Assembly: GCA_024398595.1 (NCBI GenBank) | Contig: JAKSIX010000011.1 | Span: 1-48,802 of the forward strand | Length of the DNA stretch: 48,802 nt | From: Bacteroidaceae bacterium | GTDB lineage: Bacteria > Bacteroidota > Bacteroidia > Bacteroidales > Bacteroidaceae | Direction of reading: 5' to 3' | In this document: positions 5,810 to 34,674 of the stretch, piece after piece | Position numbering within the stretch: position 1 is the first letter of the stretch | Layout of the letters: the number at the start of each line of letters is the position of its first letter | Notes under the pieces: generated by a model | What the model saw: the letters and a program-made list of their open reading frames with translations, nothing else | Told to the model about the DNA's origin: nothing | Database searches by the model: none | Position numbers and translations under genes: made by a program

Positions 5810-7837
5810 ATGGTTATGAACAGCAAAGAATTGATGAACAGGGCGGCTGACAACATCCGCATCCTGGCAGCCTCAATGGTAGAGAAAGCAAAATCAGGTC
5901 ACCCGGGCGGCGCAATGGGCGGCGCAGACTTTATCAACGTACTCTTCTCAGAGTTCCTGCAGTACGACCCGAAGAACCCAAGCTGGGTAGGCCGTGACCG
6001 TTTCTTCCTTGACCCGGGGCATATGGCTCCAATGCTTTACTCAGAGCTTGCCCTTGTCGGCAAATTCTCTCTTGACGAGTTGGCACAGCTCCGTCAGTGG
6101 GGTTCACCTACAACCGGCCACCCTGAATTTGACATAGCACGCGGCATCGAAAACACATCAGGTCCTCTCGGCCAGGGTCATTCCTACGCCGTAGGAGCAG
6201 CCATCGCAGCCAAGTTCCTCGCAGCGCACACAGGCAACCCCACATTTGAGAAGGAGACCATCTACGCATACATATCCGACGGTGGAGTCCAGGAGGAAAT
6301 CTCACAGGGAAGCGCACGTATTGCAGGCGTGCTCGGCCTGGACAACCTCATCATGTTCTATGACTCAAACGACATACAGCTGTCTACAAAGACAAAGGAG
6401 GTGATGAACGAGGATACCGCTGCCAAATATCAGGCTCTCGGTTGGGAAGTCAGAGTCATCAAGGGCAATGACTGCGAGGAGATACGCAAGGCTCTCGCCT
6501 GGGCAAAGGGTGTCAGAAACAAACCGGCTCTCATCATAGGCAAGTGCATCATGGGCAAGGGTGCCCTCAGATCTGACGGGACTTCATACGAGGCAGACTG
6601 CAAGACCCACGGTGCGCCTATCGGTGGTCAGGCCTACATCAATACTATAAATTATCTCGGCGGCAATCCGGAAAAGCCGTTCCAGATATTCCCGGAGGTC
6701 AAGAAACTGTATGCAGAGCGTGCCAAAGAGCTGAAAGATATCTGCGCAGAGCGCTACAAGGAGGAGAAAGCCTGGGCAAAGGCCAATCCGGAAAAGGCAG
6801 CCGCACAGGACGAGTGGTTCAGCGGCAATGCCCCGAAAATCAACTGGCGGAAATGCGTACAGAAGGACAACGATGCAACACGTTCAGCATCGGCAGCCTG
6901 TCTGTCAATACTGGCAGAGCAGGTTCCGAACATGATTTGCGCAAGTGCCGACCTCAGCAACTCAGACAAGACCGACGGTTTCCTGAAGAAGACCCACGCT
7001 TTCACGAAAGGCGACTTCAGCGGTGCATTCCTTCAGGCCGGTGTGGCAGAGCTGACAATGGCATGCTGCTGCATAGGTATGTCTCTGCACGGCGGTGTCA
7101 TCCCGGCTTGCGGTACATTCTTCGTATTCTCAGACTACATGAAGCCTGCAGTACGTATGGCAGCCCTTATGGAACTTCCTGTCAAGTTCATCTGGACTCA
7201 CGATGCATTCCGCGTAGGTGAGGACGGTCCTACACACGAGCCTGTTGAGCAGGAGGCACAGATCCGTCTGATGGAGAAGCTGAAGAACCACAGTGGCAGA
7301 CCGTCAATGCTGGTGCTCCGTCCGGCAGATGCCAAGGAAACCACGGCAGCCTGGTCAATGGCAATGAAGAACACCAAAACCCCGACTGCGCTGATACTGT
7401 CACGTCAGAACATCCAGAACCTGCCTGCCGGCAATGACTACAAGCTCGCTGCAAAGGGCGGCTATATTGTAGCCGGCTCAGACGAAAACCCGGATGTAAT
7501 CCTCGTAGCTACAGGTTCTGAGGTATCCACACTGGTGGCAGGCGCAGAGCTGCTCCGCAAGAAGCACATCAAGGTTCGCATCGTAAGCGTTCCTTCCGAG
7601 GGTCTGTTCCGCAGCCAGAGCAAGGAATACCAGCAGAGCGTACTTCCTACAGGTGTCAGGAAGTTCGGTATGACAGCCGGCCTGCCAGTCAACCTGCTCG
7701 GACTTGTTCCGGAAGCAGAGGGCAAAATCTGGGGTCTGGAGAGCTTCGGTTTCTCAGCTCCTTACAAGGTGCTTGACGAGAAGCTCGGTTACACGGCAAA
7801 GAACGTCTATAAGCAGGTAATGAGCCTTCTGAAATGA
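5810..7837 (+). CDS. tkt: Transketolase
   Basis: Thiamine-diphosphate enzyme of the non-oxidative pentose phosphate pathway, moving two-carbon ketol units between sugar phosphates; 675 residues, a full-length TK. ATG 5816 (MNSKELMNRAA) is an equally good start. Seen: the N-terminal KSGHPGGAMGGADF, the ThDP/Mg motif in the form SDGGVQEE (S156 where the family usually has Gly of GDG), GPLGQGHSYAVGAA, and in the Pyr domain EDGPTHEPVEQ with the catalytic Glu region. The Asn residues after GGVQEE (YDSNDIQLS) fit the Mg-binding part. It overlaps rpiB by ATGA, so the two pentose phosphate enzymes are co-translated. Confidence 0.97.
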   Translation: MVMNSKELMNRAADNIRILAASMVEKAKSGHPGGAMGGADFINVLFSEFLQYDPKNPSWVGRDRFFLDPGHMAPMLYSELALVGKFSLDELAQLRQWGSPTTGHPEFDIARGIENTSGPLGQGHSYAVGAAIAAKFLAAHTGNPTFEKETIYAYISDGGVQEEISQGSARIAGVLGLDNLIMFYDSNDIQLSTKTKEVMNEDTAAKYQALGWEVRVIKGNDCEEIRKALAWAKGVRNKPALIIGKCIMGKGALRSDGTSYEADCKTHGAPIGGQAYINTINYLGGNPEKPFQIFPEVKKLYAERAKELKDICAERYKEEKAWAKANPEKAAAQDEWFSGNAPKINWRKCVQKDNDATRSASAACLSILAEQVPNMICASADLSNSDKTDGFLKKTHAFTKGDFSGAFLQAGVAELTMACCCIGMSLHGGVIPACGTFFVFSDYMKPAVRMAALMELPVKFIWTHDAFRVGEDGPTHEPVEQEAQIRLMEKLKNHSGRPSMLVLRPADAKETTAAWSMAMKNTKTPTALILSRQNIQNLPAGNDYKLAAKGGYIVAGSDENPDVILVATGSEVSTLVAGAELLRKKHIKVRIVSVPSEGLFRSQSKEYQQSVLPTGVRKFGMTAGLPVNLLGLVPEAEGKIWGLESFGFSAPYKVLDEKLGYTAKNVYKQVMSLLK

Positions 7838-21180: not shown

Positions 21181-22344
21181 ATGACAGACACAGAAAGCGA
21201 ATTGGCAATAGGACGCTATTGCGACTTGACGAACGATGTTGCGTTCCAATGGATTTTCGGACGCGAGGAGAACAAAGACCTGCTCATAGCACTGCTCAGC
21301 GGGCTGATTACGGACAGGAGAATCAGGGATTTGAAATTCTACAAGCAGAGGCAGATGCCGTTCTCCAAGGAGCTGAAGAAGAGCGTGTTCGATGTGTCGT
21401 GCAGGACTGACGACGGTTCGTACATTGACGTGGAGGTGCAGGTGAGGAAGCAGGACAGGTTCGAGGACAGATGCCTCTACTACTCGACATTCAACATCCA
21501 GGGCCAGATCAGAGAGTCGGCGGAGGAATACAGGCTGAAGCCTGTGTATGTGGTGTCGATAGACGGCTTCACGCGCAACCACGGAGACGGATGGGACGGA
21601 AGGGTGATTTCTCACTACGTGATAGAGGAAAGTGAGGTGCACGAGATGATGACGGACAGCCTGCACTTCATATATGTGGAGCTGCCTGCATTCAACAAAG
21701 GCTGGGAGGAGATAGACAACGACAAGGACAGGTTTCTGTACTGCATAAAGCACCTGCACGAGATGGACGAGCTGCCGGAGGGTTTCACCGACGGTATATG
21801 GGAAAGGTTCACGAGACAGTGCGAGCTGGCGGAGATGCCTGCGGAAATAAAGGAAGAATATATCAACACTATGACAACAGAAATAGACAGAAGGGCGCAG
21901 GATTTATACGCAAAAAGAGAAGCACGTAAGCTTCGCGAAGAAATACGTAAGGAACGCGAAGAAATGCTCAAAGAAAAAAGTCAGCTTCGTGAGGAGAAAA
22001 GTCAGCTTCGTGAGGAGAAAAGTCAGCTTCGTGAGGAGAAAAGTCAACTTTGCAAAGAGAAAAGTCAACTTTGCAAAGAGAAAAGTCAACTTCACGAAGA
22101 AGAAAACAAACTTCACGAAGAAGAAAACAAACTTCGCGAAGAAGAAAACAAACTTCGCGAAGAAGAAAACGAACTTCGCGAAGAGAAAAGAACCGCACGT
22201 GCAGAAGGCCGTGCGGAAGGTCGCGAAGAAGGAGAGCTCAAAGCGAAACTTGATGATGCAGGCAAACTGAAAGCAGCCGGCATTCCAATTGATATAATTT
22301 GTCAGTGTACGGGTTTAAGCCCGGAGCAGGTATCAGAATTGTAA
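21181..22344 (+). CDS. Rpn-family PD-(D/E)XK nuclease/putative transposase with heptad repeats
   Basis: 387 residues. The N-terminal domain (LTNDVAFQWIFG; SVFDVSCRTDDGSYIDVEVQ; YYSTFNIQGQI) is the PD-(D/E)XK nuclease of the Rpn/PDDEXK transposase family, with Asp and the EVQ form of the ExK motif. These proteins promote RecA-independent recombination and have been linked to phage defence. From about residue 240 a charged coiled coil runs through ten seven-residue repeats (EKSQLRE/EENKLRE type). The C-terminus, IDIICQCTGLSPEQVSEL, is the family tail. The coiled coil is much longer than usual because of DNA-level duplication. It overlaps the convergent dehydrogenase gene by 12 bases. A second member lies at the right edge of the window. 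Confidence 0.85.
   Translation: MTDTESELAIGRYCDLTNDVAFQWIFGREENKDLLIALLSGLITDRRIRDLKFYKQRQMPFSKELKKSVFDVSCRTDDGSYIDVEVQVRKQDRFEDRCLYYSTFNIQGQIRESAEEYRLKPVYVVSIDGFTRNHGDGWDGRVISHYVIEESEVHEMMTDSLHFIYVELPAFNKGWEEIDNDKDRFLYCIKHLHEMDELPEGFTDGIWERFTRQCELAEMPAEIKEEYINTMTTEIDRRAQDLYAKREARKLREEIRKEREEMLKEKSQLREEKSQLREEKSQLREEKSQLCKEKSQLCKEKSQLHEEENKLHEEENKLREEENKLREEENELREEKRTARAEGRAEGREEGELKAKLDDAGKLKAAGIPIDIICQCTGLSPEQVSEL
21973..22182 (+). repeat. 21-bp minisatellite inside the Rpn gene
   Basis: Ten tandem 21-bp units in frame, each coding seven residues. Identical or near-identical units occur in runs: three EKSQLRE, two EKSQLCK, one EKSQLHE, one EENKLHE, two EENKLRE, one EENELRE. This indicates recent stepwise duplication by slippage. 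Gain or loss of units keeps the frame and changes coiled-coil length by one heptad. Confidence 0.92.
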
Positions 22345-26567: not shown

Positions 26568-26598
26568 TTGGCAAAAATGAAGGAAGATACTATTTTTG
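26568..26598 (+). promoter_or_regulatory. hsdR promoter
   Basis: TTG (26568-26570), 20 bases, TATTTTTG (26591-26598) is a consensus Bacteroidota promoter, 50 bases before the hsdR ATG at 26648 and divergent from the fucose-type operon. Confidence 0.65.
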
Positions 26599-26647: not shown

Positions 26648-29600
26648 ATGATTAAAGAGAAACAAATTGAGGATCACTTCATAAGCAGACTCGTAGATTT
26701 AAAATACACATTGCGGGAGGACATCTGCGACAGGAACACGTTGGAAAGGAACTTCCGCAACAAGTTCGAGCAGCTTAATCACGTACATCTGACCGATGCG
26801 GAGTTCACCCGTTTATTGGAAGAAATTACTGACTCCGACGTATATTCTGCCTCAAAAAGGCTGAGGGAACGTGACACATTCATCCGCGAAGATGGCACCC
26901 CACTCCAATATATGCTGGTAAACATCAAGGATTGGTGCAAAAACGACTACGAGGTTATTCACCAACTTCGTATGAATACCCGCAACAGTTTCCAGCGTTA
27001 TGACGTGATAATCCTAATCAATGGTCTGCCCATTGTACAAGTTGAACTGAAAACTCTTGAGGTCAGCCCACGCCGTGCAATGCAGCAGATTGTCGATTAC
27101 AAGAACGATGCAGGTAACGGATACACAAATTCATTGCTTTGTTTCGTACAAATGTTCATCGTAAGCAACCGGACAAACACATACTACTTTGCAAACAACA
27201 ACAATCAGCATTTCAATTTCAATGCCGACGAGCACTACCTTCCCGTATATCAGTGGGCCGATACAGCCAACAGGAAAATACCGAATCTGGATGATTTCTC
27301 AGATGTTTTCCTGCCTAAATGCAAGCTCGGTGAAATGATAAGCCGCTATATGGTTCTCGTTGCCAGTGAGCAGAAAATCCTGATGATGAGACCATATCAG
27401 ATTTATGCCGTAAAAGCCATAGTGCAATGCATTGAAGAGAATCGTGGCAACGGATATATCTGGCATACCACCGGCAGCGGTAAAACATTGACATCATTCA
27501 AGGCGGCCACATTGTTGAAAGACAACCCCGACATCGCCAAGTGTCTGTTTGTGGTAGATCGCAAAGATCTGGACCGCCAGACCCGCGAAGAATTCAATAA
27601 GTTCCAGCCGGGGTGCGTTGAAGAGAACACGAACACAGACACTTTGGTACAGAGAATGTTGTCAGAGGACTACGCAGACAAGATTATCGTCACCACAATT
27701 CAAAAATTAGGCATAGCATTAGACCCGCATAACCGCAACAATTATCAGCAGTTGTTATTGCCATTGAAAGACGAAAGAATGGTATTCATCTTTGATGAGT
27801 GCCACCGTTCCCAGTTCGGTGAAAACCATAAAGCCATCAAGGAATTCTTTCCCAAAGCACAGCTGTTCGGATTTACAGGTACGCCCATTTTTGACGAGAA
27901 CGCCACATATACCCAGGCCACAGGCGAGACTGGACAATACAAGACGACTGCGGATGTATTCCAGAATCCGCTTCATTCATATACTATCACGAATGCCATT
28001 GACGACAAGAATGTTCTGCGTTTTCACGTTGACTATTTCAAGCCGGACGATGCAACCGTTACATCCACATCGGAGAAAGTCAGGAAACAGGCTATTGTTG
28101 AAAGTATATTGGGCAACCACAAAGCCGCCACCAATGATATGCGTTTCAATGCCCTGTTCGCCACAGCATCAATCAATGACGCCATTGAGTACTACGGCCT
28201 GTTCAAAAGGGAACAGGAGAAGCGTATAAATACGGAAGGTGGTTATGAGCCATTGAATATTACCTGTGTATTCTCACCACCTGCAGAAGGCAACAAAGAC
28301 ATCATGCAGATTCAGGAGGATTTGCAGCAGGAACGTATTGACAATGAGCAGGAACCCGACAAGAAGAAAAAGGCTCTTCAGACAATCATTGGTGAGTATA
28401 ATGTCCGATATGGCACCAATCATACCATTGAGGAATTTGACGCATATTATCAGGATGTACAGAAAAGGATAAAAGACCAGAAATACACCAACAAGGATTA
28501 TCCGCACAGGAACAAGATTGATATTACTATTGTTGTGGATATGCTTTTGACAGGATTTGATTCAAAATACCTGAATACGCTTTACGTTGACAAGAATTTG
28601 AAATATCACAACTTGGTACAGGCATTCTCACGCACAAACCGTATTCTTAACGACACGAAACCATACGGCAACATTTATGATTTCCGCAGTCAGCAGGACG
28701 ATGTGGACGAAGCAATTGCAATGTTCTCGGGTGAAAAGACTGACCAAGAGACGGCCCGCCTTGTATGGCTTGTCGAACCTGTTGAGACTATCAGACAGAA
28801 GTTCAATGATGCAGTCAGGAATTTACGTGACTTTATGGCACTGCACAGCCTGGAATTCAATGCCTCAGAAGTTTCGAATTTCAAAGGCGATGAAGCCAAG
28901 GCTGGTTTCATCAACTACTTCAAGGAAGTCCAAAGATACAACACGCAACTCAATCAATATACAGATATAAACAAGGTCTGCGACACCCAAAGCAGTATAA
29001 GCGAGCCTTCAATACAGTATGGCTTTGCATTATCAGAAGATGATATGAACGCATTCCGAGGCGCATATCTTGACATCGCAAAGGAACTGAAGACGAAACG
29101 TGAGAAGAAAGATGTTGAAGTGTCAGAAGAAGTTGAAGAGCTTGATTTCGAGTTCATACTGTTTGCCTCGGCACTGATTGACTATGACTATATAATGGGA
29201 CTGATAGCCAGATATGTCGGTACACCGACTGTCAACAAGATGACCAAAGACCAGCTTATCAGCCTCATTATGTCAAGCTCGACAATGATTGACGAGCGCG
29301 AGGACATAATTGCATACATCAACGCATTAGACCCAAATATCGTAAACGGAAAGACCGAACAGCAAATCAAGGATGAATACGAGGTTTTCAAGACTGAGAA
29401 GTTCGCCAAGGAGCTGACTGACATTGCCAATAAGCATCAGTTGGATATCACCTTACTTGAACAGTTCACCCACCATATTGTTGAGCGCAAGATATTCGAT
29501 GGCGAGGAACTGAGCAATCTCCTTGAACCTCTTGAATTAGGCTGGCGTGACCGCATCAGCAAGGAAGAGGAACTGATGAGTGACCTCATACCGCTTATGA

Positions 29601-29653
29601 AGCGAATGACAGGAGGCCAGCAGATATCCGGACTTGATGCGTACGAGGAATAA
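26648..29653 (+). CDS. hsdR: Type I restriction enzyme subunit R (HsdR)
   Basis: 1001 residues: the motor and nuclease subunit that translocates DNA and cuts unmodified molecules. An N-terminal PD-(D/E)XK nuclease carries D119 in RYDVIIL and E133-L-K135 in VQVELKT. Helicase motif I is TTGSGKT (about 276-282), motif II DECH (about 384-387) in FIFDECHRSQFGE, then FTGTPIF. The later helicase part holds DMLLTGFDSKYLNTLYVDK and QAFSRTNRI. The C-terminus, for assembly with HsdM/HsdS, is helical. Intact length for the EcoR124-like branch. First gene of the locus, unlike the usual R-M-S or M-S-R order. Confidence 0.95.
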   Translation: MIKEKQIEDHFISRLVDLKYTLREDICDRNTLERNFRNKFEQLNHVHLTDAEFTRLLEEITDSDVYSASKRLRERDTFIREDGTPLQYMLVNIKDWCKNDYEVIHQLRMNTRNSFQRYDVIILINGLPIVQVELKTLEVSPRRAMQQIVDYKNDAGNGYTNSLLCFVQMFIVSNRTNTYYFANNNNQHFNFNADEHYLPVYQWADTANRKIPNLDDFSDVFLPKCKLGEMISRYMVLVASEQKILMMRPYQIYAVKAIVQCIEENRGNGYIWHTTGSGKTLTSFKAATLLKDNPDIAKCLFVVDRKDLDRQTREEFNKFQPGCVEENTNTDTLVQRMLSEDYADKIIVTTIQKLGIALDPHNRNNYQQLLLPLKDERMVFIFDECHRSQFGENHKAIKEFFPKAQLFGFTGTPIFDENATYTQATGETGQYKTTADVFQNPLHSYTITNAIDDKNVLRFHVDYFKPDDATVTSTSEKVRKQAIVESILGNHKAATNDMRFNALFATASINDAIEYYGLFKREQEKRINTEGGYEPLNITCVFSPPAEGNKDIMQIQEDLQQERIDNEQEPDKKKKALQTIIGEYNVRYGTNHTIEEFDAYYQDVQKRIKDQKYTNKDYPHRNKIDITIVVDMLLTGFDSKYLNTLYVDKNLKYHNLVQAFSRTNRILNDTKPYGNIYDFRSQQDDVDEAIAMFSGEKTDQETARLVWLVEPVETIRQKFNDAVRNLRDFMALHSLEFNASEVSNFKGDEAKAGFINYFKEVQRYNTQLNQYTDINKVCDTQSSISEPSIQYGFALSEDDMNAFRGAYLDIAKELKTKREKKDVEVSEEVEELDFEFILFASALIDYDYIMGLIARYVGTPTVNKMTKDQLISLIMSSSTMIDEREDIIAYINALDPNIVNGKTEQQIKDEYEVFKTEKFAKELTDIANKHQLDITLLEQFTHHIVERKIFDGEELSNLLEPLELGWRDRISKEEELMSDLIPLMKRMTGGQQISGLDAYEE

Positions 29654-29669
29654 ACTTTTGCAACATATT

Positions 29670-30668
29670 ATGGAAGATATACTGAAAAACAACAATTTCA
29701 TCGACGACATCCGTGCTTTGATAAACGAAGCAAGGACACAGGTCGTGCACACTGTGAACACCGTAATGGTTGCCACTTATTGGGAAATAGGCAGACGAAT
29801 TGTAGAAGAAGAGCAAAACGGCAAAGAACGCGCAGAATATGGCAAATATCTGATTAAGAACCTTGCAGAAGCACTTACGGCTGATTTCGGGAAAGGTTTT
29901 GGAGAAACTAACTTGAAATATTTCAGGCAGTTTTACCAAACATTTCCAATTCGTCACACACTGCGTGACGGATTAAGTTGGTCGCATTATCGGCTTTTGA
30001 TGCGAGTGGAAAACGAAGAGACTAGAACATTTTATCTGAATGAAGCAATAGAATGTGCTTGGAGTGTAAGGCAATTGGAACGGCAAATCAGTTCTTTCTA
30101 CTACCAGCGTTTGCTTGCCAGTCAAAACAAAGGTATTGTCAAAAAGGAAGCAGAACAAAATAACGCACCCATTACACCATCAGAAGTCCTGAAAGACCCA
30201 TACATTCTTGAATTTCTAGACTTGAGCGAGCGCAAAGACTATCTTGAAGCTGATTTGGAAAGTTCATTGATAAGTCATTTGCAGAGTTTTCTGCTTGAAT
30301 TAGGCAAAGGATTCTCATTTGTAGCCCGCCAGCAGCGTATCACTACCGAAGCAGGGAAACACTATTACATTGATTTGGTTTTTTACAACTACCTGCTCAA
30401 ATGCTTTGTACTGATAGATTTGAAAATCGGCACTCTTACACCTCAGGATGTAGGGCAAATGGATTTGTATGTACGCCTATACGAAAAGCAGAAACGCACT
30501 TCCACCGACAATCCGACCCTCGGCATCATCCTTTGTTCCCAGAATGATGGAACCGTAGTGAAGTATTCAATGCTATCCGAAAGCAAACAGCTTTTCGCCT
30601 CACAATACAAGCTCTATCTGCCAACAGATGAAGAATTTAAGCAGATTATGAGTAGAAAAGAATTTTAA
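29670..30668 (+). CDS. DUF1016 (YhcG-type) PD-(D/E)XK nuclease
   Basis: 332 residues from the ATG at 29670, 16 bases after hsdR; ATGs further upstream overlap hsdR. The N-terminal half is the helical DUF1016_N DNA-binding-like domain (ARTQVVHTVNTVMVATYWEIGRRI; LSWSHYRLLMRV). The C-terminal half is the nuclease (HYYIDLVFYN...VLIDLKIG with D and DLK). YhcG proteins are frequent guests in type I RM loci, where their role is not settled; a Holliday-junction or structure-specific nuclease activity is suggested by the fold. It ends three bases before hsdS. Confidence 0.88.
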   Translation: MEDILKNNNFIDDIRALINEARTQVVHTVNTVMVATYWEIGRRIVEEEQNGKERAEYGKYLIKNLAEALTADFGKGFGETNLKYFRQFYQTFPIRHTLRDGLSWSHYRLLMRVENEETRTFYLNEAIECAWSVRQLERQISSFYYQRLLASQNKGIVKKEAEQNNAPITPSEVLKDPYILEFLDLSERKDYLEADLESSLISHLQSFLLELGKGFSFVARQQRITTEAGKHYYIDLVFYNYLLKCFVLIDLKIGTLTPQDVGQMDLYVRLYEKQKRTSTDNPTLGIILCSQNDGTVVKYSMLSESKQLFASQYKLYLPTDEEFKQIMSRKEF

Positions 30669-30671
30669 GCA

Positions 30672-31919
30672 ATGGCTGACACGACCAAAATACTCCCCAA
30701 GCTCCGCTTCCCCGAATTTGCCAATGATGGGGAATGGGAAAAAGTAAAGTTGGGAGAGGTTGTAACATTTTGCAACAGTAAATGCAACAGAAGCGAGTTA
30801 AGAATCGACACTTACATTAGTACAGAAAACATACGGCAGGATTTCTTAGGTATAAAGCGAGCAGTTAATCTGCCGCAAAATGGCTCTTTCACAAAATTTA
30901 GAATAGGTGATATTTTGGTTTCCAATATTCGCCCATATTTGAAAAAGATATGGCAAGCAAATTTTGATGGTGCAGCATCTAATGACGTTTTGGTTTTTCG
31001 GACAAAAAATCAAAACTACGATGAATATGTTGCTCATCTAATCAAAAGTGATGCGTTTGTAAATTATTGTATGGAAGGGGCAAAAGGGGTTAAAATGCCT
31101 CGCGGTGATAAATCAACGATGTTGGAATATAGTATTCCACTTCCTTCTCTACCCGAGCAGCAGAAAATTGCTTCGTTACTCACCTCGTTAGACGAGCAGA
31201 TTTCCGCCAACACGAAAAAACTGGAGGCTCTGAAAGCCCACAAGAAAAGCCTTATGCAGCAGCTTTTCCCCGCCAACGGCGAAAAAACGCCCAAACTGAG
31301 ATTCCCGGAATTTAAGAACACCGGAGAATGGAAAGTCGTGAAGTTGGGAGAAATAGCCAAACGAATAACTTTAAAGAACAAAGACAAAAAGTCTTTGCCT
31401 GTATTAACCAACTCTGCTTCAGGGGGAATTGTAAAACAAGAAGATTATTTTGACAGGGAAATTGTCAGCAAAGATAATCTCATAAACTATTACATTGTTT
31501 CTGATGATGATTTCGTTTATAACCCTCGCATTTCTACAATTGCACCTGTAGGGCCTATTTCAAGAAATAAAATCGGAGAAGGTGTTATGTCGCCTTTATA
31601 TACTGTATTTAGATTTGTTGAAGGCGATGTCGATTTTTTTGAGCATTATTTTAAGACGAACAATTGGCATCAATATCTTAAAGACAAGGCAAATTTTGGT
31701 GCTCGATTTGACAGAATGAATATTTCCACAGAAGATTTTATGGGATTGCCAATACCATTTCCCCCTCTTACCGAACAACAGAAAATCGCCTCATTTCTAT
31801 CCTCCCTTGATGATATAATTCAGGCGCAGGACAATAAAATACAGAAATTGGAAACATATAAAAACGGATTGATGCAACAGCTGTTTGCTAATACTATTGA
31901 TTGTCAACCCACATATTAA
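30672..31919 (+). CDS. hsdS: Type I restriction specificity subunit (HsdS)
   Basis: 415 residues with two target-recognition domains (about 20-160 and 215-345), each opened by KLRFPEF...GEW..VKLGE and closed by a helix beginning EQQKIAS and ending LMQQLF. The two halves are clearly internal duplicates, as usual in HsdS, so the enzyme should read a bipartite target. Only one hsdS and no site-specific recombinase is present here, so shuffling of specificity genes is not supported in this window. Base composition is A/T-rich compared with the flanking core genes. Confidence 0.92.
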   Translation: MADTTKILPKLRFPEFANDGEWEKVKLGEVVTFCNSKCNRSELRIDTYISTENIRQDFLGIKRAVNLPQNGSFTKFRIGDILVSNIRPYLKKIWQANFDGAASNDVLVFRTKNQNYDEYVAHLIKSDAFVNYCMEGAKGVKMPRGDKSTMLEYSIPLPSLPEQQKIASLLTSLDEQISANTKKLEALKAHKKSLMQQLFPANGEKTPKLRFPEFKNTGEWKVVKLGEIAKRITLKNKDKKSLPVLTNSASGGIVKQEDYFDREIVSKDNLINYYIVSDDDFVYNPRISTIAPVGPISRNKIGEGVMSPLYTVFRFVEGDVDFFEHYFKTNNWHQYLKDKANFGARFDRMNISTEDFMGLPIPFPPLTEQQKIASFLSSLDDIIQAQDNKIQKLETYKNGLMQQLFANTIDCQPTY

Positions 31920-31927
31920 TATCTTTG
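31897..31927 (+). promoter_or_regulatory. Internal promoter before the protease-hsdM genes
   Basis: TTG (31897-31899), 20 bases, TATCTTTG (31920-31927) is a consensus promoter that begins in the last hsdS codons and lies 24 bases before the protease ATG. It would let the protease, the small protein and hsdM be made independently of hsdR-hsdS. Confidence 0.6.
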
Positions 31928-31951
31928 TAACAACTATAAAATCATATTACG

Positions 31952-32809
31952 ATGGAAAATTTGATAGACAAGGCTCTAAAAGGGCTAATGAGACAGACTT
32001 TAGTGGAACTTGAGTCCAAGACCAGTAGCGACGTACTAAACTATTTTGGTCCAATTGCTGATGGTAATGAAAACGCCTTTCTCGGAATAATAGAGGATTT
32101 GGCAAATGATCCTGACAAGAAAAATCGTCTTACAGTTATATTAACGACTACAGGCGGAAGTGCATTGGCAGTTGAAAGATATGTGAATATCATCCGTAAA
32201 CATTATGAAACAGTCCATTTTATTGTACCTGATTACGCATACAGCGCTGGAACAATTTTCTGTATGAGCGGAGACGAAATATGGATGGATTATTTCTCTG
32301 TTCTTGGCCCAATTGACCCTCAAGTCAAGAACAAGGAAGGTAAATTCGTCCCAGCATTAGGATATTTGGATAAGGTGAACAGTTTGTTGGAAAAAGCAAA
32401 AAATGGAACTCTGACAAACGCGGAATTTCTGATTCTGAAAGATTTTGATTTAGCCGAACTAAGAGGTTACGAACAGGCAAAAGAATTAACCATCTCACTA
32501 TTGAAAGAATGGCTTGTAAAATATAAATTCAAAAATTGGGATAAGCACAGAAACGGCAATTCTGTAACGCCAGCAGAGAAGTCCGCTCGCGCAGAAGAAA
32601 TCGCAGACAAATTGGGAGACAATAATATATGGAAAACTCACGCACGCCCCATACGCATCGATGAATTGGAAGAACTGAAACTCAAAATAAGAGACTACAG
32701 TGATGACACAGAGTTAAGGTCAATCATCAGAAAATATTACAATCTATTGACAGATTTAACAAACAAGTACGGTATGAATATCTTTATTCAGACTCGTAAA
32801 TACATATAA
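31952..32809 (+). CDS. SDH/SppA-like Clp-fold serine protease
   Basis: 285 residues, no signal peptide, so cytoplasmic. VILTTTGGSALAVERYVNII, VPDYAYSAGT and DEIWMDYFSVLGPIDPQV are the pattern of the serine-dehydrogenase-proteinase (SDH) branch of the ClpP/crotonase fold; S98 in YSAGT is the expected nucleophile. The C-terminal SARAEEIADKLGDN..WKTHARPI segment is also typical of that family. It lies between hsdS and hsdM, which is not part of a canonical type I system. It may process or degrade a partner (for example the small protein directly behind it, or HsdR, as ClpXP does in enterobacteria); this is inference. Confidence 0.85.
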   Translation: MENLIDKALKGLMRQTLVELESKTSSDVLNYFGPIADGNENAFLGIIEDLANDPDKKNRLTVILTTTGGSALAVERYVNIIRKHYETVHFIVPDYAYSAGTIFCMSGDEIWMDYFSVLGPIDPQVKNKEGKFVPALGYLDKVNSLLEKAKNGTLTNAEFLILKDFDLAELRGYEQAKELTISLLKEWLVKYKFKNWDKHRNGNSVTPAEKSARAEEIADKLGDNNIWKTHARPIRIDELEELKLKIRDYSDDTELRSIIRKYYNLLTDLTNKYGMNIFIQTRKYI

Positions 32810-32811
32810 TT

Positions 32812-33018
32812 ATGGGAGAAACAGAGAAAAGGATCACTGATTTGATGAACAATGTAGAAAAATTGCATTACGACACGACAACTTTAGAAACATTCGAAAA
32901 ATCTTCTAAAGAATTTCAGAATTTGATAGAACAGGGTTTGGCTAAATCTCGAGGCTATAATCTGCAAACTATAGAAGATAGAATGACATTCGCATTTAAT
33001 GCTACCTCCTCTCTATAA
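32812..33018 (+). CDS. Small hypothetical protein in the RM locus
   Basis: 68 residues starting two bases after the protease stop, ending 30 bases before hsdM. Charged, helical and without cysteines apart from none; a predicted short coiled coil (ITDLMNNVEKL; LETFEKSSKEFQNLIEQGL). Codon use and spacing look genuine. No family recognised. It could be a cofactor or substrate of the protease, or a small regulator of the methyltransferase. Confidence 0.65.
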   Translation: MGETEKRITDLMNNVEKLHYDTTTLETFEKSSKEFQNLIEQGLAKSRGYNLQTIEDRMTFAFNATSSL

Positions 33019-33048
33019 CTGCTTCGCAACAACGAATAGTTACGAAAT

Positions 33049-34674
33049 ATGACCACCCATAACCAGCAAGAATTAGGCAAGACCCTTTGGAACATCGCAA
33101 ACAATCTGCGGGGGGCTATGATGGCGGACGATTTCCGCGATTATATGCTGTCTTTCCTTTTTTGGAAATATTTGTCCGACAGTTACATTGCCGCAGCTAA
33201 AAAAGAACTTGGCAGCGATTACGAAGAATTGAAGGAATGCAATGATTCATCGCAAAAAGGAAGTCCTCTGCAATTGTGGTATAAGAAGAATCCGGACGAT
33301 GCACAATTGTTTGAGAAACAGATGCGCAGAAAGATTCATTATGTAATAAAGCCGGAGTATCTATGGGATAATATTGCAGAACTGGCAAGAATCCAAAGCG
33401 GCGAATTGCTTACCACTATAGAAAAAGGTTTCAAATACATTGAGGAACAATCATTTGGCAGTTCATTCAAAGGATTGTTCTCTGAAATAAACCTCAACTC
33501 GGAAAAGTTAGGCAAAAGCTATCAGGAAAGAAATACTCTGCTTGCAAAAGTAATAACCACAATAGCAGCAGGTCTTGCGGAACTTTCTTCCGATTCCGAT
33601 TCTTTGGGCGATGCCTACGAATATCTGATCGGACAGTTTGCAGCAGGTTCCGGGCAAAAAGCCGGAGAGTTCTACACGCCGCAGAAAATTTCCACCATTC
33701 TTTCAAAGATAGTCACACTTGATTGCCAGGATCCGAAAAGCGGAAAAAAGAAGCAGATTAACCGCGTACTTGATTTTGCCTGTGGCTCAGGATCATTGTT
33801 GCTGAATGTCAAGAAAGAGACTGGAGCCAATGGCATAGGCAAAATCTATGGCCAGGAGAAGAACATCACCACATACAATCTGGCGCGAATGAATATGCTG
33901 CTGCACGGTGTGAAAGACACTGAATTTGAGATTCATCACGGCGATTCTCTTGCCAATGACTGGGATATTCTTAACGACCCTAACCCTGCCAACAAAATTT
34001 CATTCGATGCAGTTGTGGCAAATCCGCCGTTCTCACTCAGATGGGATCCAACTGAAGATACTGCCAACGATTTCCGCTTCAGCCGGTACGGCATTGCTCC
34101 CAAATCTGCAGCCGATTTTGCATTTCTGCTTCACGGTTTCCATTATCTGAGCAATGACGGCACTATGGCCATTATACTGCCTCACGGAGTTCTGTTCCGT
34201 GGAGGCAAAGAATTGGCCATTCGAAAGAAATTGCTTGAAGATGACAACATTGACGCTGTTATAGGATTACCGGCAAACCTGTTCTACTCTACCGGCATTC
34301 CTGTCTGCATAATTGTATTGAAGAAATGTCGCAAGAACGATAAGATTCTTTTCATCAACGCCAGTTCTGACGAACATTACGAAAAGGGCAAACGGCAGAA
34401 CTATCTGCGTGATGAGGACGTTGATAAAATTGTCACAAGATACCAGGACAGAGAGTACGAGCCACGCTACTCACGTCAGGTATCACTACAGGAAATACGT
34501 GACAATGACTACAACCTGAACATCACACGTTACGTAAACCTTTCAAAGGAAGAGGAAGAAATTGACCTGTATGAAGTCAACAGGCAACTGCAGGACATAG
34601 AAAAGAAAATCATTGAGTCTCGCGACAGGCACAATGCTTTTCTCAGGGAATTGGGCCTGCCGGAACTCCCATAG
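33049..34674 (+). CDS. hsdM: Type I restriction methyltransferase subunit (HsdM)
   Basis: 541-residue N6-adenine methyltransferase, partner of HsdS and HsdR. An N-terminal helical HsdM_N domain (LGKTLWNIANNLRGAMMADDFRDYML) is followed by the SAM motif DFACGSGS (about 242) after QFAAGSGQKAGEFYTP, and the catalytic NPPF (325-328). The C-terminal helix binds HsdS. Intact length. It stands last in the locus, behind the protease and small protein, and ends 20 bases before the DUF4922-SpoIID gene, which has a different base composition. Confidence 0.95.
   Translation: MTTHNQQELGKTLWNIANNLRGAMMADDFRDYMLSFLFWKYLSDSYIAAAKKELGSDYEELKECNDSSQKGSPLQLWYKKNPDDAQLFEKQMRRKIHYVIKPEYLWDNIAELARIQSGELLTTIEKGFKYIEEQSFGSSFKGLFSEINLNSEKLGKSYQERNTLLAKVITTIAAGLAELSSDSDSLGDAYEYLIGQFAAGSGQKAGEFYTPQKISTILSKIVTLDCQDPKSGKKKQINRVLDFACGSGSLLLNVKKETGANGIGKIYGQEKNITTYNLARMNMLLHGVKDTEFEIHHGDSLANDWDILNDPNPANKISFDAVVANPPFSLRWDPTEDTANDFRFSRYGIAPKSAADFAFLLHGFHYLSNDGTMAIILPHGVLFRGGKELAIRKKLLEDDNIDAVIGLPANLFYSTGIPVCIIVLKKCRKNDKILFINASSDEHYEKGKRQNYLRDEDVDKIVTRYQDREYEPRYSRQVSLQEIRDNDYNLNITRYVNLSKEEEEIDLYEVNRQLQDIEKKIIESRDRHNAFLRELGLPELP

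Follow-up and report, generated by a model that had tools for sequence, protein, structure and literature searches.

A serine protease and small-protein cassette in the hsdS–hsdM slot of a type IC-like restriction operon from a Bacteroidaceae bacterium

Why should a Clp-fold serine protease be encoded between the specificity and methyltransferase genes of a type I restriction-modification (R-M) operon? The question is raised by a stretch of 48,802 nucleotides (nt) from a Bacteroidaceae bacterium (GenBank assembly GCA_024398595.1, contig JAKSIX010000011.1, positions 1 to 48,802 of the forward strand; hereafter, the window), in which an SDH-type protease gene and a gene for a protein of 68 amino acids (aa) separate hsdS from hsdM. 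The original prediction, made from the sequence alone, proposed either built-in proteolytic control of restriction or a protease effector activated through HsdS and HsdM. We favor, with somewhat more confidence than doubt, a different answer: that the two genes form an autonomous cassette, resembling a toxin-antitoxin (TA) or abortive-infection system, which occupies the slot used by PrrC in a type IC-like operon and whose small protein restrains the protease.

Six open reading frames (ORFs) follow one another on the + strand, and the gene order and gaps first described (32 bases between hsdS and the protease gene, 2 between the protease gene and the small ORF, and 30 between the small ORF and hsdM) are exact:

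26648–29653, + strand: hsdR, type I restriction subunit, type IC-like (HSDR_N, SWI2/SNF2, and EcoR124_C)
29634–30668, + strand: DUF1016/YhcG nuclease of the PD-(D/E)XK type, cargo of the hsdR–hsdS slot (DUF1016_N and YhcG_C; PADLOC PDC-S02)
30672–31919, + strand: hsdS, specificity subunit (Methylase_S, two stretches)
31952–32809, + strand: SDH-type Clp-fold serine protease of 285 aa (PF01972; phrog_11747; Ser98 codon at 32243–32245)
32812–33018, + strand: 68-aa partner protein (decapeptide GLAKSRGYNL, residues 42–51, at 32935–32964)
33049–34674, + strand: hsdM, type I methyltransferase subunit (HsdM_N and N6_Mtase), with the cassette slot directly upstream

The R-M system itself appears to be type IC by its domain and family matches (EcoR124_C at E = 3.7e-55, TIGR00497 for HsdM at E = 4.7e-114, and the two Methylase_S stretches), and PADLOC models match the Hsd proteins as well as YhcG.

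The protease and its small partner recur largely outside restriction operons. A scan of genome contigs yielded 38 loci with relatives, most of them with up to 9 kb of sequence on each side and some with much less, and tblastn with the window Hsd proteins detected no hsd genes in 37 of these 38 stretches, with the proviso that a distant hsdS could be missed. The sole stretch showing hsd genes, from a Victivallis metagenome-assembled genome (L048, 8992–15811), has hsdM and hsdR on the other strand, pointing toward the pair, with an intervening HsdS-like gene, so that the pair meets a convergent hsdS–hsdM–hsdR cluster. Read from this distribution, the protease and the small ORF are a conserved two-gene cassette that does not belong to the restriction system, which bears out the earlier view that neither protein is a canonical R-M component.

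A near-identical pair is found by megablast in 17 of 5,426 complete Escherichia coli genomes. In all 12 of the 17 places that were inspected, its surroundings are phage genes and a repressor of the LexA/CI family precedes it: directly adjacent in eight, separated by one small membrane-protein gene in three, and separated by an insertion sequence (IS) element in one (CP52E). Because the upstream repressors represent six accessions, the pair follows the position rather than any single immunity type. Scans of viral contigs returned 2 loci with the window protease as the query and 17 with the E. coli protease; among 18 genes upstream of the pair (from 16 of the 17 IMG/VR loci, omitting L099, which has only short ORFs upstream, plus 2 from E. 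coli), 16 match HTH_3 and 13 match Peptidase_S24. As encoded by E. coli prophages, the two proteins match phrog_11747 and phrog_28875, both labeled “unknown function,” and the sole names they carry in E. coli annotation are “SDH family Clp fold serine proteinase” and “hypothetical protein.” Plasmid records contained 35 matches, none reaching 60% identity; the pair is present on Methylosinus and Rhizobium plasmids, and the Rhizobium copies stand beside multiubiquitin and ThiF genes. On the Rhizobium plasmids (L061 and L062), the protease gene comes after the multiubiquitin/ThiF-family cluster, with DUF6527 also present in L062.

The window protease scores 66.7 bits against PF01972 (SDH_protease), above the cut-off of 31.3, but 77.5 bits against the Clp_like_SDH equivalog NF047768, whose cut-off is 250, placing it within the family and outside the equivalog; it also matches phrog_11747 at E = 1.1e-57. 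In an alignment of 40 relatives (38 to 80% identity to the window protein), the invariant positions are Ser98, Ser116, LGPID at 118–122, Gln124, Trp187, Lys192, and His230, and the early placement of S98 within YSAGT was right. A profile built from these 40 relatives finds ClpP (1y7o, E = 3e-5) and the NfeD-type protease PH1510 (3bpp, E = 4e-5) in the Protein Data Bank (PDB), with matches spanning the region of the protease that holds the serine; the window protease alone gave a single PDB match (E = 0.29), which we take as chance. Neither cassette protein matches anything in PADLOC-DB 2.0.0 (E ≤ 0.1; for the E. coli protease, E ≤ 0.001), nor does either match the PrrC-type family (ABC ATPase with the anticodon nuclease triad). 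The nearest relatives (L021 to L024, 79 to 80% identity) equal the window protease in length, and no hsd genes were detected around them in the DNA fetched; since the lengths agree, the window protease seems to have gained no R-M-specific domain. Six further SDH relatives (L053 to L056, L058, and L096) differ in the small partner, which ends in YTSS, YTTT, or similar, and their ORFs extend to about 390 aa or beyond; they possibly represent a second type of the same module.

The small gene accompanies the protease gene widely. When ORFs of 45 to 100 aa were sought downstream of the protease in 74 loci (including plasmid, E. coli, IMG/VR, same-order, and same-family genomes), a partner ORF of 56 to 90 aa was found in 67, a count made by reading, with near-duplicates included and no chance control, and with the partners of L007 and L029 recognized only on closer look. 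Three of the remaining loci (L031, L052, and L129) end too early, and one (L061) is broken. Omega ranges from 0.06 to 0.21 in the small gene (synonymous divergence, dS, being computable in 6 of 12 pairs) and from 0.03 to 0.05 in the protease gene (5 of 12 pairs), with some dS values above 1. Because the small ORFs resemble one another within groups and their sequences are constrained, we take the 68-aa ORF to be a real gene under purifying selection, and the pair, which is conserved with both genes under such selection, may be a type II TA module.

The small partner evolves fast, and the window protein has no match to NCBIfam, PADLOC, or, at significance, PHROG (phrog_28875 included) and none above the cut-off in Pfam. 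When 34 small proteins were sorted into four groups, the profiles of groups 1 and 2 matched each other (probability, 91%; E = 1e-6), group 2 matched the prophage group at a shared motif (66%, E = 6e-5), group 1 matched the prophage group weakly (2%, E = 0.02), and groups 1 and 4 did not match. The recurrent element is a segment near the C terminus of the form G-phi-x-K/N-x-R/P-x-Y/F-x-L. A pattern for it, G.{3,6}[YF].[LIF], devised after viewing the alignments, matches 13/14, 4/6, 9/9, and 1/5 members of the four groups, where shuffles average 2.4, 0.8, 0.5, and 0.3, one of the four group-2 matches being to another stretch. Profile searches of the PDB with the small proteins returned mostly designed repeat proteins and coiled segments, which we take as composition artifacts. 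A joint alignment of the small proteins with protease-small protein fusions was dropped, as it misplaced the small proteins. The aligner put the RGYNL segment of the small protein (32935–32964) on the protease segment around the invariant His230 (32630–32660), which may be chance or may reflect a partner that mimics the protease.

What the hsdS–hsdM slot holds in related operons supplies the context for the window cassette. We mapped 46 loci of the window hsdM clade (9 + 1 + 29 + 7 from four samples; 63 to 73% identity), and the slot could be read in the 40 that show hsdS or hsdR ahead of hsdM. PrrC occupies 21 of these 40 slots (called by PADLOC in the seven scanned and assigned to those seven by BLAST in the other 14), and all 21 proteins keep R, E, and H at the R-X3-E-X32-H spacing of the anticodon nuclease triad of PrrC. 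The other 19 slots are empty (4) or hold a zeta-toxin-like gene with a small protein (4, three of them also with a PD-(D/E)XK transposase gene), other small-gene pairs (2), SIR2-HerA (2), Gabija (1), YhcG (2, one a fragment), KilA-N (1), or a gene of 214 to 240 aa with, at best, a subthreshold match to Y1 transposases (3). A PDB sequence search with one slot PrrC gave no match. The SDH pair is in none of the 40 slots; the synteny between the pair and hsdM put forward as a check on the original prediction is thus nearly restricted to this genome, with the convergent cluster of L048 as the exception. The RloC form of the triad is described in PMC2610378.

Several of these slots hold entire known defense or toxin-like systems between hsdS and hsdM, namely SIR2-HerA, Gabija, or a zeta-toxin-like gene accompanied by a protein of 70 to 80 aa (L183, L191, L194, L175, L176, L181, and L182; cargo at 5965–8876 in L183, 7152–10000 in L191, and 7113–11028 in L194), the cargo of L194 and L182 lying between hsdR and hsdM instead. 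The hsdR–hsdS gap is a second cargo slot, filled in 14 of 31 cases (loci L114 to L203) by YhcG, ORF6N proteins, or ORFs of unknown type, and YhcG is there twice (L119 and L176), as in the window, where its gene begins with TTG at 29634 and overlaps the 3′ end of hsdR. A distant hsdM group of six loci (L122 to L127) was mapped but kept outside the census; some of its members have T5orf172, ORF6N, or YhcG-like genes beside hsdM, and none of the mapped loci showed an SDH or small-protein match.

The cassette differs from slot PrrC in its upstream sequence. TAnnTTTG is the −7 element of the Bacteroidetes sigma-ABfr (PMC7366714), and two copies bear on this operon:

26591–26598, + strand: TAnnTTTG −7 box upstream of hsdR, an exact match and the likely operon promoter
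31920–31927, + strand: TATCTTTG, Bacteroidetes −7 box (TAnnTTTG) starting 32 nt before the protease start codon, the putative cassette promoter

Such a box lies within 90 nt before the protease start in 14 of 26 other loci, 13 of them at 28 to 44 nt and one at 80 nt, compared with 1.2 ± 1.06 of 26 in random windows (largest, 7) and 51 of 264 other ORFs. The 26 loci include near-duplicates; without L004, L022, L024, L026, L029, and L032, 9 of 20 have the box at 28 to 44 nt, and for L041 the distance was counted from a site other than a start codon. Protease loci without the box are mostly the more distant ones. Within the hsdM clade, 11 of 34 hsdR genes have the box in the preceding 90 nt, as against none of 21 slot prrC genes, 35 hsdS genes, or 45 hsdM genes, and prrC is packed against the preceding gene (gap of at most 11 bases, or overlap) in 20 of 21 cases. 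Neither sigma-70 sites (20, versus 19.7 in shuffles) nor terminators (6, versus 7.0) are in excess. The cassette probably brings its own promoter, and because it has its own box whereas prrC is boxless and packed, PrrC looks like a true operon member and the SDH pair like a guest with its own switch.

On the reading that we favor, the cassette would have moved into the operon and would serve in defense. The protease and the small protein would be produced together, and the small protein would bind and restrain the protease via its conserved C-terminal G-phi-x-K/N-x-R/P-x-Y/F-x-L segment; infection would remove or outcompete the small protein, and the serine protease, once free, would then halt the infected cell by cleaving some protein of the host or the phage. 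A separate first line of defense would be provided by the R-M enzyme. Restraint of the protease is suggested by the tight linkage of the genes, the protease-type enzyme, and the fast-evolving partner with its conserved segment, and we assign the inhibitor role to the small protein with moderate confidence, an adaptor or activator role being its rival. The proposed defense role draws on position, that is, the PrrC slot here and the post-cI slot in E. coli.

A number of observations weigh against this reading or soften its support. Only in this genome is the SDH pair found in the hsdS–hsdM slot; in the family sample, the 11 further genomes of the genus gave no match to the protease (E ≤ 1e-25) and none to this hsdM (E ≤ 1e-190). 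Searches of 50,697 phage records found only 7 weak relatives with either query, leaving prophages and IMG/VR contigs as the basis for a link to phages. When PADLOC families were tallied among 104 neighbor proteins of 33 loci (E ≤ 1e-20; no control), the families had one to three members each among the 25 of 164 listed; the commonest were RtcR/NtrC-type regulators, with three members each, and defense families had one or two, a tally so low that the stand-alone pairs are not clearly in defense islands and enrichment there is not seen. The TATCTTTG box was first spotted by eye in the window and only then tested on other loci, and its −33 element is weak (ATTG, 20 nt before the −7 box, by eye); the strict Bacteroides pattern with a −33 TTTG has three matches in the window, none at the hsdS–protease gap. 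One of the four small-protein groups (A10) is without the motif, and in L051, L063, and L095 the protease is intact while the small ORF is unconvincing.

The pattern of gene decay likewise offers less than it first seems to. The protease is broken, truncated, or absent while the small gene is intact in seven cases (L006, L007, L029, L057, the IS insertion in E. coli CP52E, and two E. coli genomes in which the small gene stands alone behind the repressor), and there is no clear reverse case. The asymmetry is only suggestive, the protease gene being roughly four times the length of the small one: the chance of 0 of 7 is about 0.2, and it is higher if the two small-gene-only E. coli genomes count once. 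L061, with both genes broken, is not a case of asymmetry. The argument that the small gene must be an antitoxin because the protease decays first was therefore rejected as proof, on the grounds of gene length, of L061, and of L051, L063, and L095.

Several of these points would also suit a role other than defense, in which the protease works with a small adaptor, activator, or substrate in lysogeny control, stress response, or protein quality control and came to be in the hsd slot as a mere hitchhiker. The position behind a CI repressor fits lysogeny functions too, stand-alone pairs have few defense neighbors, and the decay asymmetry is not significant by itself. This reading nonetheless strikes us as rather unlikely: the slot otherwise holds mainly defense or TA-like modules, and a gene for a mere substrate would not be expected to persist without the protease, as the small gene does in two E. 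coli prophages.

Less probable still is a guard coupled to the R-M enzyme, with the protease latent in a complex with HsdM, HsdS, and HsdR until a phage antirestriction protein releases it. The precedent would be PrrC, which fills the same slot in related operons, and whose orthologs are described as invariably linked to type Ic R-M systems and switched on by Stp of phage T4 (PMC2610378); the same-strand packing with hsdM also fits. Of the effector role first suggested for the protease, the defense setting is reasonable, as related operons use the slot for PrrC and other effectors, whereas activation by HsdS and HsdM is the part that we consider unlikely. The pair does without detectable hsd genes in nearly all related stretches, and an obligate link to the Hsd proteins is made less likely by the cassette's own −7 box, absent from all 21 slot prrC genes, and by a protease length unchanged from that of stand-alone homologs. 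The slot also takes in Gabija and SIR2-HerA, modules that work alone.

Built-in proteolytic control, with the protease trimming or degrading HsdR or HsdM as ClpXP does for EcoKI, has adjacency in its favor and is highly improbable, because the pair mostly occurs without detected hsd genes and the 40 readable slots of the R-M clade are without the pair, and because the comparison with ClpXP fits poorly with an HsdR that carries EcoR124_C, ClpXP-mediated alleviation being described for types IA and IB and the mechanism in type IC being different (PMC12707154). On the same two distributional grounds, we also discarded the idea that the pair is a subunit of the R-M enzyme or a regulator dedicated to it.

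A cargo effector within an hsd operon is already known as a kind. PrrC (EcoprrI) shares with the autonomous cassette that we propose the slot directly upstream of hsdM, as an extra effector within the operon, but is a single gene with an ABC-type ATPase and a HEPN-type nuclease domain and is described as always linked to type Ic systems (PMC2610378, PMC3710099); the SDH pair consists of a serine protease and a small partner, mostly occurs without hsd genes, and has its own −7 box. Campylobacter hsd loci likewise have variable genes (rlo and mlo) in the hsdR–hsdS and hsdS–hsdM gaps (PMC5183652, citing Miller 2005), and the portion of that paper available to us mentions no SDH protease among them. 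Among the open-license PMC matches listed, a set that does not extend to bioRxiv, we found no description of a protease pair as hsd-operon cargo or as a defense system. As for the E. coli pair, its place behind cI is the position of rexAB in lambda, and the likeness to such lambdoid exclusion genes is one of position, with no relation in sequence claimed.

If our reading is correct, a pair now annotated as a proteinase and a hypothetical protein becomes a defined candidate defense module, to which two independent positional clues point: its location in the PrrC slot of a type I operon from Bacteroidota and its location behind cI in E. coli prophages. We put forward only tentatively, and with considerable doubt, the broader proposal that this would be an undescribed anti-phage module that crosses phyla, in which a small protein restrains a protease toxin and which sits behind cI in lambdoid prophages and replaces PrrC in a type IC R-M operon as the fallback when restriction fails. 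The hsdS–hsdM slot of one Bacteroidota hsdM clade would be a swap site for second-line effectors and, with PrrC, SIR2-HerA, Gabija, and zeta-toxin pairs found there so far, a cheap route to further ones. The E. coli version puts the question of defense within immediate experimental reach.

Elsewhere in the window, at 21181–22344, a 387-aa ORF resembles, by eye, transposases of the Rpn/PD-(D/E)XK type. Nearly identical heptads (REEKSQL, REEENKL) follow one another through its C-terminal half, and these repeats also yield spurious ORFs on the opposite strand.

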